Virus record (IMG/VR): IMGVR_UViG_3300010160_000107
Coordinates: 1-38,771 of that record
Reading direction: 5' to 3' (one strand)
DNA: 38,771 nucleotides
Source of the DNA: a virus
Both the position numbers and the translations under genes were made by a program. The notes beneath the pieces are model-generated. The model was not told where the DNA came from. It saw nothing but the letters and a program-made list of their open reading frames with translations, and made no database searches. Positions 1,263-17,948 of the stretch are shown here, one piece after another (the stretch's first letter is position 1; each line of letters starts with the position of its first letter).

Positions 1263-1622
1263 ATGCCTGCTGAAAGAGGTAGACAATTTCCAGACGAGTT
1301 ATCTTATGATGTCAAACCTGTAGGACCTAATAGAAGGGGTCATACTTGGTTGCACGTTTCTGCTGTTCATCCAAAACATGGGGAACTTGGACTATTAACG
1401 GCATTAGCGGAAAGTGGCGACCCAGACATTCCAAAAGGTCAAATTGGTAGTGTTTCGGTTATGCCTGACCATCAACGAAAAGGTGTAGCAACTGCTATGG
1501 CTAAAAGAGCCGAACAAGAACTAGGTATTAACCTTAGCCATAGTGAGGCGCGAAGCGATGATGGGGAAGCTTGGGCTAAAGCATTTGGTGGAACTATGCC
1601 GCCAAGGGAGGATTTGCGTTAA
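1263..1622 (+). CDS. GNAT-like N-acetyltransferase, paralog 1
   Basis: The 119-residue product has the acetyl-CoA binding motif A of GNAT enzymes: strand GQIGSVSVMP followed by the pyrophosphate loop QRKGVATAMAKRAEQEL (about residues 60-88). GNAT proteins transfer an acetyl group from acetyl-CoA to an amine; no substrate can be read here. It is short for the family (usually about 140-160), so the N-terminal strands may be reduced. The C-terminal block HSEARSDDGEAWAKAFGG recurs in the next two genes, making the three tandem paralogs. Its N-terminus carries RGRQFP, a tag shared in form with the genes at 1622 and 2283. The ribosome site is AGGAA. The stop overlaps the next start by one base. Confidence 0.8.
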   Translation: MPAERGRQFPDELSYDVKPVGPNRRGHTWLHVSAVHPKHGELGLLTALAESGDPDIPKGQIGSVSVMPDHQRKGVATAMAKRAEQELGINLSHSEARSDDGEAWAKAFGGTMPPREDLR

Positions 1623-1948
1623 TGGATAGAGGTAAACAGTTCCCGTACACCTATGTAAATAACCCTATTTCTGATAGTAGTGGTTTAGGTGAATGGAACT
1701 CTGTTGAAGCCCACCACCCAGAAGAGGGTAAAGTAGGGCATCTTATTTGGCATCCAGAGGGTGAAATTCAAGACGTTCACGTAAACGAAGAGCATAGAAG
1801 AAAAGGCGTTGCTACGGGTATGTATGAGCACGCTAAGAAACTTAAACTAAAACCACCTGAGCACTCTGAACTACGCTCAGAAGAAGGTGACGCCTGGGCT
1901 CGTGCTGTAGGTGGCAAAGTACCAGAGATGGAGATTCCTGATTACTAA
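1622..1948 (+). CDS. GNAT-like N-acetyltransferase, paralog 2
   Basis: This 108-residue protein is the second of three tandem GNAT paralogs. Motif A is plain: strand GEIQDVHVNEE, then RRKGVATGMYEHAKKL (about residues 59-74). The shared C-terminal block reads HSELRSEEGDAWARAVGG. The N-terminus, MDRGKQFPYTY, matches the first residues of the ADP-ribosyltransferase-like gene at 2283, and both genes start with ATGGATAGAGG. The start overlaps the preceding stop by one base (TAATG), and a GGGAGGA site lies inside the end of the upstream gene. The substrate is unknown. Confidence 0.8.
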   Translation: MDRGKQFPYTYVNNPISDSSGLGEWNSVEAHHPEEGKVGHLIWHPEGEIQDVHVNEEHRRKGVATGMYEHAKKLKLKPPEHSELRSEEGDAWARAVGGKVPEMEIPDY

Positions 1949-2283
1949 TGGATGAAGAATATACTTATGCTGACGTGCCAAGAGTAAGCATACCTGGAAA
2001 GCCCAAACCAGGTGGTTACCGTATTCAGGCTACTCACACCGAAAGTGGCGAATCAGTAGGAAACTTGTTTTGTGACCACTCTGGTAAAGTACAATCTATA
2101 CAAGTAGAGCCAGAACACAGGAGAAAAGGCGTAGCCACTGCTATGTGGGAGCATGCACAAGGTCTAGCAGAACAAGGTAAAGTTCCAAAACCTAAACACT
2201 CTAGCGATAGAAGTGACCAAGGCGACGCCTGGGCTAAGTCAGTAGGCGGTCGCCGTCCCCGCAGAGTGGAGTTCTTCGAATAA
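1948..2283 (+). CDS. GNAT-like N-acetyltransferase, paralog 3
   Basis: The third paralog has 111 residues, with strand GKVQSIQVEPE and loop RRKGVATAMWEHAQGL (about residues 47-71), followed by the block HSSDRSDQGDAWAKSVGG. It lacks the RG-x-QF N-terminal tag of its two relatives and starts with an acidic, aromatic stretch (MDEEYTYADVP). The start overlaps the preceding stop (TAATG), with GGAG about 20 bases upstream. Three diverged copies in a row point to duplication followed by specialisation rather than simple dosage. An acetyl-CoA-binding role is likely; the target is not known. Confidence 0.8.
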   Translation: MDEEYTYADVPRVSIPGKPKPGGYRIQATHTESGESVGNLFCDHSGKVQSIQVEPEHRRKGVATAMWEHAQGLAEQGKVPKPKHSSDRSDQGDAWAKSVGGRRPRRVEFFE

Positions 2284-2543
2284 TGGATAGAGGACCACAA
2301 TTTTTATACCACGGTACTGATGCTGATTTAGAGCCTGAAGACATGGTAACACCTCAAGGTACTTCAAAAGACGGTGCAGAAGGATATGGTTGGGCTTTTG
2401 CTACTCCTGACTCAGAATACGCCGCCGAACATGGTAAAAACGTTTACCTTGTAGAGGGGACGGGCGATGAGCAAGTGCATCCAGATAATGAAGAAGCTGT
2501 AGTCAGCAAAAAAGGCTTTAGAGTAGTAAAGAGGCATCGATGA
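2283..2543 (+). CDS. Arr-like ADP-ribosyltransferase (rifamycin-transferase fold), short
   Basis: The 86-residue product follows the order of Arr-type ADP-ribosyltransferases: FLYHGTDADLEPEDMVTP at residues 7-24 (family YHGT...L-x-PGD), a middle GWAFATPDSEYAAEHG, then a VYLVEGTG strand and a VHPDN...GFRVVKRH ending like the family's DDPN...PLRVV. Arr enzymes move ADP-ribose from NAD+ onto rifamycin, and distant relatives act on other targets. This protein is shorter than Arr (about 140) but keeps the NAD-pocket His of YHGT. It starts MDRGPQF, the same form of tag as the acetyltransferases upstream. It overlaps the previous stop by one base and the next start by four (ATGA). Drug resistance is unlikely to be its role in a phage; modification of a host target is inference. 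Confidence 0.7.
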   Translation: MDRGPQFLYHGTDADLEPEDMVTPQGTSKDGAEGYGWAFATPDSEYAAEHGKNVYLVEGTGDEQVHPDNEEAVVSKKGFRVVKRHR

Positions 2544-2701
2544 CCGTAGATGAACTCCACCAACTGCACATGAACAAACTGATACAGTCATTCGGTGTAA
2601 GTACTGCCGTAGGCGCGTTTCGAAATGATAGAGCGGCTAGGGCGCTAGGTAATCATTATTCAGAGACTGCTGACCCCGCTACGTCTAAGGAAGAAGTCTA
2701 A
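2540..2701 (+). CDS. Small hypothetical protein between two ADP-ribosyltransferase-like genes
   Basis: This 53-residue reading frame starts at an ATG overlapping the previous stop (ATGA) and ends in a TAATG overlap with the next gene, so it fills the gap exactly. The N-terminal half looks helical (MTVDELHQLHMNKLIQSFGV), followed by a small basic segment (AFRNDRAARALGNHY). It could be a partner or antidote for a neighbouring enzyme, but nothing in the sequence shows this. The fit between neighbours is the main evidence that it is real. Confidence 0.6.
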   Translation: MTVDELHQLHMNKLIQSFGVSTAVGAFRNDRAARALGNHYSETADPATSKEEV

Positions 2702-3138
2702 TGCCTAAAGACAACTACGTAAAACTCTACAGGGGATTGGCTAATGCAAAGCCTGAAGATGTTAGCACAGGTAGGGGATTAGACGACCCTGACTATCCAG
2801 GTGTACATGACAGTGTTGGCATACATTGGACTCCAGACTTTGAAGTTGCTAAAAACTTTGCTACAAACCGTGATTATGGGGGTCCTGGGAAACGTCCTGT
2901 AGATGAGGGTGTTGTAGTAGAGGCTATGGTACATAAACGTCATTTAATTGACTACAACTCTGATGAGGGTCAAAGGTACGCGTCCGCTTATCAAATTGAA
3001 GAGCCTGACGAAGATAGTAATGAAAACGAGACCACGGTACGACGTCGCTCACCTGTGTTAATTACTAAAAAACATCATTTAGTAGGAAAGCAGTTCAAAA
3101 CTGAAACTCCAGATATGCCAGTGAGGGCAAAGGCATAA
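2701..3138 (+). CDS. ADP-ribosyltransferase-like protein (R-S-E type)
   Basis: This 145-residue protein resembles compact ART enzymes. An opening KLYRGLAN gives the NAD-binding Arg (about residue 11); a central VGIHWTPDFEVAKNFATN (about 39-56) matches the strand-helix block that usually begins S-T-S/T and ends A-x-x-F; a strand VVVEAMVHKRHLIDY follows; and an acidic ENETTVRRRSPVLI segment near 108-121 could supply the E-x-E catalytic pair. The S-T-S element is WT here, so catalysis is not assured. It lies two genes after the Arr-like protein. If active, it would use NAD+ to mark a protein or nucleic acid; the target is unknown. Start and stop both use TAATG overlaps. Confidence 0.6.
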   Translation: MPKDNYVKLYRGLANAKPEDVSTGRGLDDPDYPGVHDSVGIHWTPDFEVAKNFATNRDYGGPGKRPVDEGVVVEAMVHKRHLIDYNSDEGQRYASAYQIEEPDEDSNENETTVRRRSPVLITKKHHLVGKQFKTETPDMPVRAKA

Positions 3139-3284
3139 TGAAGCCTAAGAAGGAACAATTCAAGGCGTCACCCGAACAACTTCAAGCAAGACTAGACCTA
3201 AGAAAAAGTAGCGCTTCAGGTCCAATGAAGAGCAAAAAGGCGTATACTAGAAAAGAAAAATACCCAAGGAGTTACAATGGCTAG
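3138..3284 (+). CDS. Small basic hypothetical protein
   Basis: This 48-residue, Lys/Arg-rich protein starts in a TAATG overlap with the ART-like gene and runs eight bases into the next gene. It contains ASPEQLQARLDLRKSS and ends KYPRSYNG. The composition suggests nucleic-acid binding or a disordered tail; no family is recognised. The ribosome site of the following gene (AAGGAG) lies within it, as does a TATACT box at 3243-3248. Confidence 0.5.
   Translation: MKPKKEQFKASPEQLQARLDLRKSSASGPMKSKKAYTRKEKYPRSYNG
3243..3248 (+). promoter_or_regulatory. Candidate -10 box TATACT
   Basis: TATACT occurs 29 bases before the start at 3277, followed by AGA. The same GTATACT-n-AGA string occurs at 31206-31215, also about 30 bases before a start codon. 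No -35 is visible. It is a weak candidate based on repetition and position. Confidence 0.25.
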
Positions 3285-4925: not shown

Positions 4926-5740
4926 TGGGTACAAAAAATCCAAAACCTACGCAACGCTTTGGTGTTCCGAAACCAATCGGAACACCAAAACCTACGCCAA
5001 CGCCTAAACCACCTGTATTTGGGTACCCTGTAGAGGGCGCTACCGTGTCTCAAGGGTTTGGTAACACTCCATCAAATAAAAACATAAAGTATCAGTCTGG
5101 AACAAATTTAGGAACAGATTTTGCTGCCTCAATGGGTTCTGAAATTAAAGCACCTTTGGGTGGAAAAGTTATTGGTGTTAATAAAAACGCGGGCGCTTGG
5201 GGTAATCAAGTAGTTGTGCAGTACCCTGGGGGAGCCACTTTATCATTTAACCATTTATCTAATTTTGGAAAAGTTAAACGCGGACAAATCGTTCCTCAAG
5301 GGTATGTCTTAGGACAAGTTGGTGCTACGGGGCAAACTACTGGCGCTCACCTAGACTTAGAGGCTACTCTAAACGGTGTTAGTGTACCCTTAGCAAGTGC
5401 GTTTAAGGGTTACCAGTTTGATTCCGCGTATAAAGGTGGAGAATACGGAGTCAAAAATGCAAGGGGCTACAACCGCTCTGAGAATAAATTTTATGACTTA
5501 GATAATCTTGGAGTGTACACTCCTGATAGTGACGCTAAAACTCCTGTAACCCCATCCCCAAAACCTGGTGCGGAACCTAAACCAACCCCATCACCCTCGG
5601 CACAGGCAGCCCCAGCAGCCCCGTCAGCCTCTGCGGACGGCGTAGTTGGAGGTAACGTAAACTTACAGTCAATTCGTAACCCAAGTGTATCTAAACAATT
5701 CTCTGGGGTAACCCAGGGTAATATACCGTTAGTAGGATAA
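4925..5740 (+). CDS. M23-like peptidase domain protein with altered zinc ligands
   Basis: The 271-residue protein has a Pro-rich N-terminal linker, an M23/LytM-like domain (about residues 35-160) and a Pro/Ala-rich tail. The fold landmarks are GTNLGTDFAASMG, IKAPLGGKVIGV, VVVQYPGGATLSFNHLSNF, VKRGQIVPQGYVLGQVGATG and GAHLDLEA. Canonical M23 enzymes bind zinc with H-x3-D and the second His of H-x-H. Here the first is N61-x3-D65 and the last is H142-x-D144. The two catalytic-type histidines (H110, H142) remain, but two of three metal ligands are changed. It may be inactive and used for peptidoglycan binding, or may use another metal. No signal peptide is seen. It starts in a TAATG overlap. Confidence 0.8.
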   Translation: MGTKNPKPTQRFGVPKPIGTPKPTPTPKPPVFGYPVEGATVSQGFGNTPSNKNIKYQSGTNLGTDFAASMGSEIKAPLGGKVIGVNKNAGAWGNQVVVQYPGGATLSFNHLSNFGKVKRGQIVPQGYVLGQVGATGQTTGAHLDLEATLNGVSVPLASAFKGYQFDSAYKGGEYGVKNARGYNRSENKFYDLDNLGVYTPDSDAKTPVTPSPKPGAEPKPTPSPSAQAAPAAPSASADGVVGGNVNLQSIRNPSVSKQFSGVTQGNIPLVG

Positions 5741-5742
5741 CA

Positions 5743-6048
5743 ATGTCAGAAGTTAAAAAATTTGGTCCGTATAAAGGGTCTGAACAAAATGGCGGACGTC
5801 CTATTTATGTGTATAAGAAGAAAGTAAACGGCAAGTGGGAAACCACATCCAGTAACAAGGCTCGCGTTGATTATGAGGATAAGCATGGCAAGTTGTCTAA
5901 GAATACTGACGTAGACCACAAAGATAACGGTGGTCGTAAAGGTCACGACGGTCAGTCAAACCTACAGGCTATGAGTCACTCTAAGAACGTAGCCAAAGAG
6001 AATAAACGCCGTGCTGGTAAGAAAGCCACCCCAAAGAAGAAAAAGTAA
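5743..6048 (+). CDS. HNH endonuclease-like protein
   Basis: This 101-residue basic protein carries an HNH-type motif: DVDHKDNGGRKGHDG (about residues 56-70), then SNLQAMSHSKNVAKENKRR. The first His (VDH), the NLQ Asn and the final S-K-N position give an H-N-N arrangement. The N-terminal part (GRPIYVYKKKVNGKWETTSSNKARVDYE) resembles the strand preceding many phage HNH folds. HNH proteins nick or cut DNA, either as packaging partners or as free-standing homing enzymes. It is far from the terminase gene and has no intron next to it. The tail is Lys-rich. AGGA precedes the start. Confidence 0.8.
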   Translation: MSEVKKFGPYKGSEQNGGRPIYVYKKKVNGKWETTSSNKARVDYEDKHGKLSKNTDVDHKDNGGRKGHDGQSNLQAMSHSKNVAKENKRRAGKKATPKKKK

Positions 6049-12849: not shown

Positions 12850-14424
12850 ATGAGTGAACATCAATTTTACGCTGAGAGCGAAGACGACCTCTCTGACGAC
12901 CTTTTGCCTGAAGAGCCTGAGGAAGATGAGGTTGATGAACTTTCTAAAGAGTTTGTAAATAAACTAATAGACAAGATGATGCTCTTTATGGAGACCCTTG
13001 TTGGGCACGCGCTTCACCCTTACCAAGTACCGCTTGCACGCCGTATTATGGAATCAGTGCTTATTAACGACGGTGAAGAAATTACGGCTCTAGCCGCCCG
13101 TCAGTCAGGTAAATCAGAGACTATTGCTAATACTGTAGCCACGCTTATGGTGCTTCTTCCCCGCCTTGCCAAGATGTACCCAGACCTTTTAGGGCAGTAT
13201 GTAAACGGCATTTGGATTGGTATGTTTGCTCCTGTTGAAGGTCAGGTAGAAACCCTATTTGGTAGAACTGTAAACCGCCTTAGTTCTGAGCAAGCCCGTG
13301 AGATTCTAGGTGACCCTGAGATTGATGACTCACTAGGTAAAGTTCCAGGTGTTTCTCGTCAGATTATCTTAAAAAACTCTGGTAGCAGTCTTATGATGAT
13401 GACCGCAAACCCGCGAGCCAAGATTGAGTCTAAGTCCTTCCACCTCATTGTTATTGATGAGTGTCAGGGTGCAGATGACTTTATTGTCTCTAAATCTATC
13501 TCCCCTATGTTGGCGTATTACTCAGGTACCATGGTAAAAACAGGGACACCGACAAACGTCAAAAACAACTTCTACCGCTCTATTCAGTTAAACAGGCGTA
13601 GGCAGACCTCTCGCGGTAAGCGTCAAAACCATTTCCAGTGGGACTGGAGAGATGTATCTAAAGTAAACCCTCGCTATGACAAATTCGTTCGTAAAGAAAT
13701 GCTCCGTATTGGTGAAGACTCTGATGAGTTCCAGATGTCGTATAACTGCAAGTGGATGCTTGAAAAAGGTATGTTTATTACCTCTACGGTTATGGACGAA
13801 CTTGGTGATACCAGTATGGAAACTGTTAAGTCTTATCACCGTACGCCTGTTGTGGTTGGTATTGACCCTGCTCGTAAGATGGACTCTACGGTTGTTACAG
13901 TTGTTTGGGTTGACTGGGACCGCCCTGATGAGTTTGGTTACTACGACCATCGTGTAATGAACTGGATGGAAATTCAAGGCGATGATTGGGAAGACCAGTA
14001 CTTCCAAATTGTTAACTTCTTAGCCAACTACAATGTCTTTATGGTAGGGGTTGACGCTAATGGTGTCGGAGATGCCGTTGCACAGCGTCTAAAACTGCTC
14101 CTACCGCGTGCAGAGGTCATTTCGCTAACCAGTAGCCCTACCGAGCAGTCAAAGCGCTGGAAGCACCTTAAAGCCCTTATTGACCGCCGTATGGTTGCGT
14201 TCCCTAGCCACGCTAAAACTCGCCGCTTACGCACGTGGAAGCGTTTCTATCAACAGATGACAGACCTAGAGACAAAGTTCAAAGGTCCTAACTTTATGGC
14301 TGCTGCTCCAGACGAAGCCCACGCTCACGACGATTACGCAGATTCTTTAGCAATTGCCTGTTCATTAACTATTGACATGACCATGGTTGAGGCTGAAGTA
14401 AGTTCAAGCCCATTTTATAGGTAA
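12850..14424 (+). CDS. terL: Terminase large subunit
   Basis: The 524-residue protein is the DNA-packaging motor. The N-terminal ATPase has a Walker A-type ARQSGKSE (about residues 83-90) and Walker B LIVIDE (199-204) with catalytic Glu204, plus the coupling motif KTGTPT near 230-235. The C-terminal RNase H-like nuclease has its acidic residues at D339 (VVGIDPARKMDS), D402 (VGVDANGVGD) and the D494/D495 to D498 region (HDDYADSL). It hydrolyses ATP to drive DNA into the head and cuts the concatemer. The very acidic N-terminus (about residues 9-30) is unusual. A weak ribosome site (TTGGAAAAC) precedes the start. No separate small subunit is recognised nearby. Confidence 0.97.
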   Translation: MSEHQFYAESEDDLSDDLLPEEPEEDEVDELSKEFVNKLIDKMMLFMETLVGHALHPYQVPLARRIMESVLINDGEEITALAARQSGKSETIANTVATLMVLLPRLAKMYPDLLGQYVNGIWIGMFAPVEGQVETLFGRTVNRLSSEQAREILGDPEIDDSLGKVPGVSRQIILKNSGSSLMMMTANPRAKIESKSFHLIVIDECQGADDFIVSKSISPMLAYYSGTMVKTGTPTNVKNNFYRSIQLNRRRQTSRGKRQNHFQWDWRDVSKVNPRYDKFVRKEMLRIGEDSDEFQMSYNCKWMLEKGMFITSTVMDELGDTSMETVKSYHRTPVVVGIDPARKMDSTVVTVVWVDWDRPDEFGYYDHRVMNWMEIQGDDWEDQYFQIVNFLANYNVFMVGVDANGVGDAVAQRLKLLLPRAEVISLTSSPTEQSKRWKHLKALIDRRMVAFPSHAKTRRLRTWKRFYQQMTDLETKFKGPNFMAAAPDEAHAHDDYADSLAIACSLTIDMTMVEAEVSSSPFYR

Positions 14425-14507: not shown

Positions 14508-14912
14508 ATGTCAGAAATCATTGCACCTGCACCTCAGTTCCCTGAGAAGCCAGGTACCGTGTACGACCGTACGTTAAGCCCAGCTTTGCCAGGTCAGCGT
14601 GGTCCACTTCGTTTCGAAGAGGGTCTTGCTACCGATACTGACGTTCCTATGGAATTCACTAAGGGTGCTATGCAGGGATATATCCCAGCACCTGGTCGTG
14701 TAAACCATAACCAGAACGTTTTTGAAAAGCCAGCCGAAGAGACAATGCGTGAGCGTGCTCACGTTGGCTCTTGCGCTTGGGTGGAAGCACCCGCAGTGCT
14801 TGTTGACTTTGCGTCTGAAGCATTTGCAGACCATGGTGACAACAGCTTTGCAGAAGTTTTCCGTGATGGTGGGCATCAGTTCCGTCTGAACCCATCAGTC
14901 GTACAGGACTAA
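14508..14912 (+). CDS. Hypothetical head-region protein
   Basis: The 134-residue protein has a strong ribosome site (AAGGAG) and lies between terminase and portal. It is rich in Pro and Gly in its first half (FPEKPGTVYDRT, GQRGPLRFEEG, GYIPAPGRVNHNQNVFEKP). The second half reads as alternating strands and helix (SCAWVEAPAVLVDFASEAFA, then AEVFRDGGHQFRLNPSVVQ). The strong start signals suggest high expression. It may be a head decoration or structural protein, but I do not recognise the family. Confidence 0.7.
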   Translation: MSEIIAPAPQFPEKPGTVYDRTLSPALPGQRGPLRFEEGLATDTDVPMEFTKGAMQGYIPAPGRVNHNQNVFEKPAEETMRERAHVGSCAWVEAPAVLVDFASEAFADHGDNSFAEVFRDGGHQFRLNPSVVQD

Positions 14913-15319: not shown

Positions 15320-17041
15320 GTGAGTATTGATTTCTCGCCACCCAGTTATAGGGCGGCGTCGTCTGACTTAACTATCTCAATTTCCCCTCTGGGTCTTGTA
15401 GAACTTGCTGATGAAGAGTTTGAGGTTCACGGTCCTCGGCTAAACCGTTACTCCCTTAACTGGGCTATGTACCTAGGTCACCATACATCTTACCGCCGTC
15501 AGGCTGGCGAGACCCAAATGGTTTTCAACTATTATCGTGCGTTTACAGACTACATCATTAACTTCTCGTTTAGCAAAGGCGTACAGTTTCGTAGCCCTAA
15601 GCAGACTGAGGGTATCGTACCAGACTTGTTAGAAAGAGTTTGGGAAGTTGATAACGACAAGAGAACTGTCCTATGGGAAATGGGTCAACAGGGTTCTGTA
15701 TCGGGCGACTGCTTTGTTAAGGTTGCTTATGAAGAGGGCTATACCGATACTGTTGGTAGGTTCCACCCAGGAAAAGTTCGTGTTCTTCCCTTAAACGCGT
15801 CTTTTTGTTTTCCTGAGTTTCACCCGCACGACCGTGAACGTCTTATACGTTTTAAATTAAAATACCGTTTTTGGGGAACATCACTAGAAGGAACTCGTCA
15901 GGTTTTCACATACACGGAAATCCTTACAGACGACATTATTGAGGAGTACATTAACGATGAACTTATTGACTCGCGTCCGAATCCGCTTGGCATTATTCCT
16001 GTTATTCACATTCCAAACGTCCGAGTCTCAGGCTCCCCGTGGGGACTCTCAGACTGCCACGACATTATCCCAGTCAACCGAACCTACAACGAGGTTTCAA
16101 CAGATATTGCCGATATTGTTAACTATCATGCTGCCCCTGTTACTGTCATTATTGGTGCTAAAGCTAACCAGTTAGAAAAAGGCGCTAATAAAGTCTGGGG
16201 CGGTTTGCCTAAAGACGCTCGTGTAGAAAACCTTGAGGGTGGCGCACAGGGTCTTAAGGGCGCTATGGACTTCCTAGCCCTTATGAAGAAGGCTATGCAC
16301 GAAATGACTGGTGTTCCTGAGACTGCACTTGGTCAGGCTGTTCCTATTTCTAACACTTCAGGTGTTGCCCTTTCTATTACTTTCCAGCCGTTGATGAACA
16401 AATGGAATCAAAAGACCACTCAATATGGTCGCGGTATCCAACGCATTAATGAACTTATTCTTTTAAATCTTGCTATCAAAGAGCCAGAGACCCTGAAGTG
16501 GAACCCCACCATTGAGGGCACACTACAGCAGGGCGAAGCAGAAATGCTTGACCCTAACGACCCAATTACTTACCAGAACTACGTGCATTTTATGCAACCG
16601 TTGCCTCTGGATAAATTAATTCTTCTTAACGAAGTTCAAACCATGATGTCGTTAGGTCTTGAATCAAAATCTGGTGCTCTACGCGCTATGGGTGAAGAGT
16701 TCCCACAAGAAAAACTTGAAGAGATTCGTATGGAACTTCTACTTGACGCTAAGGCTGACGGCGCTGTCAAATTGGTACAAACCCAGATTGAAAACACTAT
16801 TGCTAGCCTTACGGGCATGCTTTCGGGTGGTCTTGGCGGACAGCCAACTCCTGTGGGCAACCCAGCAGGTCCTCCTGCGGGTGGACAAGAAGGCGGTATG
16901 CCTCCAATGATGCCACCAGTTATTGACCAAGCAACAATGGCTAGCGCACAGGCTGAGCAGCAATTACGTATTGACTTGGTCACAAAAGCTTACGGAACCA
17001 CAATTCCTAATAGGAAGATTCCGTCAGAAAAGTATGATTAA
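15320..17041 (+). CDS. Portal protein
   Basis: The 573-residue protein has the long, mixed alpha/beta pattern of portal proteins: a start region with NRYSLNWAMYLGHHTSYRRQ, a crown/wing region with GDCFVKVAYEEG, IIPVIHIPN, and a stem-type stretch TYNEVSTDIADIVNYHAAPV followed by GAMDFLALMKKAMHEMTGVP. The ETALGQAVPISNTSGVALSI block is typical of portal proteins, near the clip and tunnel loop. The C-terminus is Gly/Pro-rich, likely flexible (GGLGGQPTPVGNPAGPPAGG). Twelve subunits form the vertex through which DNA passes. The GTG start has a strong GGGAGG site. Confidence 0.93.
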   Translation: MSIDFSPPSYRAASSDLTISISPLGLVELADEEFEVHGPRLNRYSLNWAMYLGHHTSYRRQAGETQMVFNYYRAFTDYIINFSFSKGVQFRSPKQTEGIVPDLLERVWEVDNDKRTVLWEMGQQGSVSGDCFVKVAYEEGYTDTVGRFHPGKVRVLPLNASFCFPEFHPHDRERLIRFKLKYRFWGTSLEGTRQVFTYTEILTDDIIEEYINDELIDSRPNPLGIIPVIHIPNVRVSGSPWGLSDCHDIIPVNRTYNEVSTDIADIVNYHAAPVTVIIGAKANQLEKGANKVWGGLPKDARVENLEGGAQGLKGAMDFLALMKKAMHEMTGVPETALGQAVPISNTSGVALSITFQPLMNKWNQKTTQYGRGIQRINELILLNLAIKEPETLKWNPTIEGTLQQGEAEMLDPNDPITYQNYVHFMQPLPLDKLILLNEVQTMMSLGLESKSGALRAMGEEFPQEKLEEIRMELLLDAKADGAVKLVQTQIENTIASLTGMLSGGLGGQPTPVGNPAGPPAGGQEGGMPPMMPPVIDQATMASAQAEQQLRIDLVTKAYGTTIPNRKIPSEKYD

Positions 17042-17159: not shown

Positions 17160-17948
17160 ATGAACCAATCTGTAAACGCAGACGTTGAAGCATTTACTGC
17201 CGAAGCGAATGTCCCTCCAGTGGCAGCAGAAACGGGCGTTGACGCACCGACTGCTATCTCATCGAACGGTCAAAAATTCTACACTGAAGAAGATTTGGCA
17301 AAAGTTCGTACTCAGGAGAAGGACAAACTTTATCCTCAAATTAACAGCCTCAAAGAAGAACTTGACGCTATCAAACGTGAAAAAGAAGAGGACTCAGCCC
17401 GTAAATTGGCTGAACAAACCGCTCTTGACGCGAAGTTAGCAGAAGAGGCTAAGCTTAAAAAAGAGGAAGAGCTTGAACTTCGGGACCTTTTAAAAGTTAA
17501 AGAATCCGAATGGAACGAGCAGTTAGAGCGTGAGCGCAACGAGCGCGAGCGTGCCTTTGCTCTACTGGACCGAGAAAAAACGTTTGCAGAAATTCAGAAT
17601 TACCGTACAAGTCGTTTAGAGCAAGAGCGGGATAATATCATTCCAGAACTTGTAGACATGATTAACGGTAACTCAATTGACGAAATTGAACAGAGTATTC
17701 AAGGACTAAAGGCTAAATCATCTAGTATCCTAGATGCAGCACAGCAAGCTATGCAGGCTGCTCGTCGGGATATGACTGGAACAAGAGTAACAACTCCGCC
17801 TAACGCGGGACCTCTTGACATCGAAACTGGTACACGTCAGTTTACGGCACAGGACATTGAGTCCATGTCGTTGGCTGAATACGCTAAGTATCGAGATAGT
17901 CTCTTGAGCCCAACCGCTCAAGGTCGTTCTACTGGTCTGTTTGGTTAA
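17160..17948 (+). CDS. Capsid scaffolding-like protein
   Basis: The 262-residue protein is dominated by a highly charged coiled coil from about residue 45 to 160 (YTEEDLAKVRTQEKDKLYPQ, then NSLKEELDAIKREKEEDSAR). The C-terminal third is shorter helices (ELVDMINGNSIDEIEQSIQG) and a Gly/Thr-rich tail. Phage scaffolding proteins look like this and sit directly before the major capsid gene, as here. It would guide procapsid assembly and then leave or be degraded. No protease is seen next to it. The start is 42 bases before a good leader sequence (AAGGAAATATA). Confidence 0.85.
   Translation: MNQSVNADVEAFTAEANVPPVAAETGVDAPTAISSNGQKFYTEEDLAKVRTQEKDKLYPQINSLKEELDAIKREKEEDSARKLAEQTALDAKLAEEAKLKKEEELELRDLLKVKESEWNEQLERERNERERAFALLDREKTFAEIQNYRTSRLEQERDNIIPELVDMINGNSIDEIEQSIQGLKAKSSSILDAAQQAMQAARRDMTGTRVTTPPNAGPLDIETGTRQFTAQDIESMSLAEYAKYRDSLLSPTAQGRSTGLFG

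Follow-up and report, generated by a model that had tools for sequence, protein, structure and literature searches.

A short N-terminal tag on more than 20 protein families of myophages that probably infect actinobacteria may be an uncleaved virion-packaging signal

More than 20 protein families in one group of phages, enzymes of unrelated folds among them, open with variants of the same short tag, the core of which is a glutamine or glutamate followed by phenylalanine, and it is rather probable that this tag is an uncleaved capsid-targeting signal that brings early-acting effectors into the virion. Our starting point is a window of 38,771 nucleotides, the whole of the IMG/VR record IMGVR_UViG_3300010160_000107, which represents a 38.8-kb myophage with a contractile tail (genes for the terminase large subunit, or TerL, the portal, the major capsid protein, or MCP, the sheath and the baseplate). 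An initial annotation had noticed an RG-x-QF start on two GNAT acetyltransferases and one ADP-ribosyltransferase (ART) and had suggested a common sorting function; the phenomenon is much larger than it saw. Why, then, should proteins of unrelated folds begin alike? The genes of the window that matter here are these (start codons are predicted throughout).

1263..1622, + strand: GNAT acetyltransferase 1, tag MPAERGRQFP; Pfam PF00583 at 29.3 bits, above cut-off
1622..1948, + strand: GNAT acetyltransferase 2, tag MDRGKQFP (1622-1645); passes the Pfam cut-off
1948..2283, + strand: GNAT paralogue 3, N-terminus MDEEYTYADV, untagged at both ends
2283..2543, + strand: Arr-like ADP-ribosyltransferase of 86 aa, tag MDRGPQF
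2701..3138, + strand: second ART-like protein (LYRG family), without an N-terminal tag; assigned by motif and homologues only
3138..3284, + strand: small open reading frame MKPKKEQFKASPEQL, with a looser tag
12850..14424, + strand: TerL; PHROG terminase
15320..17041, + strand: portal protein
17160..17948, + strand: scaffolding protein, assigned by position and by likeness to an annotated Streptomyces phage scaffold
17990..19060, + strand: MCP

The x-G-x-Q-F starts at 1263 (tag codons 1263-1292), 1622 and 2283 are as first described, with the paralogue at 1948 untagged, and the DNA string said to be common to the genes at 1622 and 2283 is indeed present in both: it is ATGGATAGAGG, and the nucleotide identity of the two amounts to 11 nt. 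Both genes begin at a TAATG stop-start overlap, the one at 1622 joining GNAT 2 to gene 1, and the degenerate pattern TAATGGANMGNGGNNNNCARTTY matches twice in the window against 0 expected from shuffles. That the tag sits on unrelated folds also stands, because the two GNATs pass Pfam and the AlphaFold2 model of the ART (pLDDT 79) finds its best PDB matches in Arr-2 and Arr (TM 0.72-0.76); against Pfam itself, the ART is weak (Arr-ms, 17.8 bits; cut-off 25). The model of GNAT 2 (pLDDT 84) has GNATs as its PDB matches, weak ones, and shows no secondary structure over residues 1-9, of which the first three score below 50 in pLDDT. The ART-like protein at 2701..3138, which itself matches nothing in Pfam or NCBIfam, carries LVGKQF about 20 residues before its C-terminus, and its homologues in other phages are tagged at the N-terminus (MVNEHLVGQQF, MAVEPGAQF). 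Two N-termini in locus L099, MKPKKGQF and MNPKEEQF, resemble that of the small frame at 3138..3284.

To look beyond the window, we gathered 107 loci from IMG/VR, 80 through an HNH-like neighbour protein and 27 through internal GNAT motifs, neither search pattern including the tag, and counted three-residue patterns (19,220 in all) in the first 14 residues with protein families as the unit. G.QF was the most enriched of them all, in 23 families against 3.1 expected, a few of the 23 being chance (zinc fingers with CGQQF, for example); its permutations stayed near expectation, with G.FQ at 1 against 1.1, Q.GF at 3 against 1.4 and F.GQ at 3 against 1.5. Single phages may carry several tagged genes: eight in L016, five in L095 and four in L003. 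Of the RG-x-QF first proposed, the Q-F part holds and the RG does not belong to the core, which is [QE]-F, usually ending at residues 7-9, with R and G variable. Other lineages use forms of their own (NL[SN]xxQF and MG[RA]NxxDF), and the proteins that carry them are again ART, GNAT, ParB-like and Zn-ribbon; more broadly written, these forms are NL[SGN]xxQ[FW] in L090, L092, L101, L109 and L112, and MG[RA][NS]xx[DEA]F in L091, L103, L111 and part of L095. Because these variants were partly defined after inspection, the G.QF statistic is the only firm one. The HNH-like basic protein of the window (5743-6048; DVDHKDNGGRKGHDxxSNLQAMSHSKNVAKENKRR) has relatives in 115 viral stretches and is a good marker of the phage group.

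Within this group, 19 of 20 aligned GNATs keep the phenylalanine of the tag, the acetyl-CoA motif residues being conserved as well, and 11 of 12 aligned ARTs keep that phenylalanine too, the rows being a hand-picked, non-random set from which homologues with doubtful starts were omitted; L100 has QL in place of QF. Homologues lacking the tag, which the initial annotation would have counted against a sorting function, are the exception among these rows. DNA encoding MSNLxxxQF, searched for on its own in 2.9 million viral contigs, gave 67 matches, among them ARTs, GNATs and ParB-like proteins, often beside several more tagged genes, together with small proteins of no known role and short frames that are clearly chance. 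The strict RGxQF occurs across IMG/VR in 24 stretches, about half of them short or chance frames, and nine of the 24 (on eight contigs) carry plausible genes in phages with the capsid or terminase type of the window. The ParB matches are weak and fall below cut-off.

Tagging at the C-terminus was considered as a class and set aside, since G.QF there is unenriched (5 against 2.5 expected); there are hints of it in two families, the LYRG ART and the Zn-ribbon, which is tagged at the N-terminus in L003 and at the C-terminus in L002, with a similar protein of L024 tagged there too. In many relatives, a small conserved protein (L024:7670-7912 and its homologues; SLDKWTKEEWTTSDGKP...GKQFVPQPKKIAKKTARHR) has a GKQF not far from its C-terminal end. 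Two further tagged proteins, a Gly/Tyr-rich one of 91 aa (MSNLSNSQFAQAVAEEENIRRRGLMNSGTGFVGNGFYWGMYPT; L239, reverse complement, 5453-5728, and L252, L259 and L276) and one of 125 aa (MSNLSGVQFQSKDWNPF; L246, L247 and L275), resemble virion components more than enzymes.

What is being conserved is the peptide. The tags use all four glycine codons, both glutamine codons (CAG/CAA, 17/12) and both phenylalanine codons (TTT/TTC, 22/7), and the tags of one phage agree in codon in 60 of 135 comparisons against 66.6 expected. Because their synonymous codons are randomised, the tags are selected at the protein level; they are no recent copies of one another and their nucleotide sequence is not the feature that is kept, so that recent gene conversion or a nucleic-acid role is unlikely, and the fusion or conversion first offered as the other origin of the tag is disfavoured. 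The form of the tag also tends to depend on the phage more than on the enzyme that bears it. On unrelated bodies, tags match at 1.70 positions within a phage and 1.29 between phages (p=0.002), and pairs of the same family from different phages match at 1.32; by a second measure of likeness, cassette genes score 13.06 within and 11.91 between phages, whereas control genes rise only slightly (10.01 against 9.70). Since tags are more alike within than between phages, the partner that they would meet may differ between lineages.

Tagged genes are nearly confined to a same-strand cassette upstream of TerL, which in the window lies about 10-12 kb from that gene. On 23 mapped contigs, the N-tagged genes mostly share the strand of TerL and lie 8-19 kb upstream of it, or 1-3 kb upstream in G018-G020; the exceptions are a tagged ART that follows TerL by 13 kb in G021, a few chance-like frames, and G022, where the place matches only if the contig is circular. 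G.QF occurs in 29 of 85 cassette genes, with cassette limits drawn by hand, and in none of 181 late structural genes; in a larger set, [QE]F occurs in 70 of 144 cassette genes and 12 of 151 controls. Cassette genes are mostly short and single-domain, with a few longer proteins of 344-547 aa. From position and strand, we infer that the cassette is expressed late. Between TerL and the portal of the window lies a conserved protein (14508-14912) that ends in GGHQFRLNPSVVQD in several relatives and is possibly a head protein. An untagged ferritin/Dps-like protein (L034:6311-6745; PF00210, E=3e-20) adjoins tagged genes. Relatives of the window also encode a proteasome beta/HslV-like protein (MTTIVGVQYEDRCVIVADNQVT; PF00227, E=2e-4, just under cut-off) at L254:5275-5823, L090:9406-9954, L092:8612-9160, L101:5929-6474, L250:8297-8857 and, on the reverse complement, L239 2740-3282, which is an odd thing for a phage to carry when its hosts probably have one themselves.

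The MCP of the window is 70-72% identical to those of the Streptomyces phages BRock, GiJojo, LuckySocke, Alone3 and pSt2308, TerL is 52-53% identical to that of Borockvirus-like Streptomyces myophages and the sheath is about 40% identical along one third of its length. Because homologous MCPs are present in genomes of Terracoccus, Streptomyces and Saccharothrix, an actinobacterium is the probable host. Wherever a tagged contig yielded a capsid gene, it was of the capsid type of the window (about 68-97% identical). The tagged contigs that lack one are short or incomplete, as IMG/VR contigs mostly are fragments, and tail genes link two of them (G060, G062) to the group. The IMG/VR record 2522125155_000001 (G063; MCP 72-79% identical) has one tagged gene and may stem from a cultured isolate, since its number is of the IMG genome type. 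The capsid alone does not imply the tag system, for no convincing tag was seen in the regions read of BRock-group Streptomyces phages with the same capsid type, nor in those read of such prophages in cultured actinobacterial hosts. Searches of cultured phages by tblastn with the tagged ART and other tagged proteins gave no match, nor did megablast for close relatives of the window.

Are there precedents? The only feature common to the internal proteins of phage T4 is their capsid targeting sequence (PMC3012670, PMC12373910), by which alone their genes can be found (PMC12373910). Like the tag, this sequence (on IPI-III and Alt) is a short N-terminal leader on small, otherwise unrelated proteins, and the place of its aromatic residue is similar: ipII and ipIII start MKTYQEF and ipI starts MKTFKEF, with E-F at residues 6-7 as in MDRGKQF, which may be coincidence. 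Beyond [QE]F there is no relation in sequence, and the present phages differ from T4 in belonging to another lineage, in a tag that varies by lineage, in a separate scaffold gene (in the window without an adjoining protease) with no T4-type core identified, and in having neither an S77/S78 prohead protease nor an [LI]xE site that we could find. In phage P1, too, an N-terminal signal directs an effector, DarB, into the capsid, truncations pointing to residues 6-10, but a consensus across the Dar proteins was not found in that study (PMC9024508); here, by contrast, there is a plain consensus on many small genes, and P1 further differs in that its capsid protein is cleaved and no separate scaffold has been identified in it. 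The signal that we propose is analogous to those of T4 and P1 but probably independent of them.

A likeness in content is offered by the polyvalent proteins of phages and conjugative elements, which Iyer et al. 2017 inferred to be packaged (PMC5512222). Their domains overlap with the tagged set (ART, GNAT and ParB-like, near late genes), but the proteins here are separate, mostly of one domain and each tagged, as if a large polyvalent protein had come apart into pieces that are each labelled separately. In Mycobacterium phage Colt, a related GNAT forms part of a multi-domain protein encoded upstream of the portal; a tag in such Bixzunavirus homologues was considered and rejected, the tblastn match to Colt gp73 beginning at the tag but being internal and reading RIQQLP. 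Encapsulins use cargo-loading peptides, short, uncleaved and terminal, to put unrelated enzymes inside a shell of the HK97 fold. Those peptides are usually C-terminal, unlike the tag, whose C-terminal cases are anecdotal. A search of the literature for such a motif, incomplete in its coverage, found none.

A common sorting function for the tag, as the initial annotation had suggested, is well supported by the more than 20 families, the randomised codons, the single cassette and the tagged relatives, and, as judged from sequence, the likeliest form of that sorting is that the proteins are packaged in the head. The tag would act as a short, uncleaved N-terminal address, with its [Q/E]-F core usually placing phenylalanine at residues 7-9 and a lineage-specific stretch (RGx, NLSxx or GRNx) ahead of it. 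It would bind a partner in assembly, be it capsid, scaffold or another head protein, and so load small unrelated effectors (ART, GNAT, ParB-like, Zn-ribbon) into the heads of actinobacterial myophages as these assemble; injected with the DNA, these could act on the host at once. We weakly favour a partner encoded by the phage rather than the host. Because Streptomyces relatives with the same capsid show no tag in the regions read, it is uncertain whether the capsid protein is that receptor. Mimicry of the scaffold was entertained and dropped, the C-terminal TGTRQF of the window scaffold not being conserved in other tagged phages.

Could the tag instead dock its enzymes onto one host protein in the infected cell, such as RNA polymerase, a ribosomal protein or a protease adaptor? 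Unrelated tagged enzymes and lineage-specific variants (in phages of different hosts) would fit, and GNAT and ART domains of other phages are thought to modify host proteins (PMC5512222). We nevertheless consider this unlikely, for the tag is also borne by small proteins, Zn-ribbons among them, that have little of the enzyme about them, plausible genes with the strict RGxQF occur almost only in contigs with this capsid or terminase type when a docking site on the host would be open to other phages too, and a cassette placed ahead of the head genes points to expression late in infection. Loading into the tail tube or baseplate, or into an intracellular compartment made by the phage, is less probable again: the phage does have a contractile tail, and the data do not separate head from tail loading, but in nearly all contigs the cassette lies upstream of the terminase and head genes and not amid the tail genes.

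Two other explanations seem to us very improbable. The tag could be a feature of expression or of the start site (initiation, N-terminal processing) or a relic of gene capture by fusion or conversion, as the TAATG overlaps and the 11-nt identity of the two window genes might suggest; its G, Q and F codons vary synonymously, codon agreement within a phage does not exceed expectation (the 60 of 135 given above) and G.QF is absent from the late structural genes of the same phages. Nor do we give much credit to the tag as part of a maturation cleavage site, a true T4-type cleaved targeting sequence, on the model of the 10-20-residue leader that is removed from T4 internal proteins (PMC5694885). 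In nine phages, we found no match to Peptidase_S78, the T4 gp21 family S77 gave a single match that stayed under threshold (12.7 bits; cut-off 27), and [LI]xE follows the tag in 3 of 70 cases against 13 of 151 controls. The window ART passes at once from MDRGPQF into its first strand, LYHGT, which in the model starts at residue 8 and so leaves little room for a cleavage site. It is because neither such a protease nor such a site was found, and because the ART fold begins directly behind the tag, that we propose an uncleaved signal, although a protease of some other kind is conceivable.

The effectors that phages inject have no homology in common by which they might easily be recognised. If the tag is a loading signal, it directly lists dozens of ART, acetyltransferase, ParB-like and uncharacterised proteins in actinobacterial phages, many of them without any annotation, and it would add a consensus form of capsid targeting beside that of T4, apparently free of a protease. 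The predicted packaging of single-domain effectors of the polyvalent type would become testable, and there would be a route for placing chosen proteins in actinophage particles. It is even conceivable, although here we fall a little short of belief, that the tag is a packaging code with lineage dialects (RGxQF, NLSxxQF, GRNxxDF) worn by most injected effectors and co-evolving with a receptor on the head side. Any enzyme that gained the tag would then be virion cargo, and the effectors of uncultured actinophages could therefore be listed by their tag alone.
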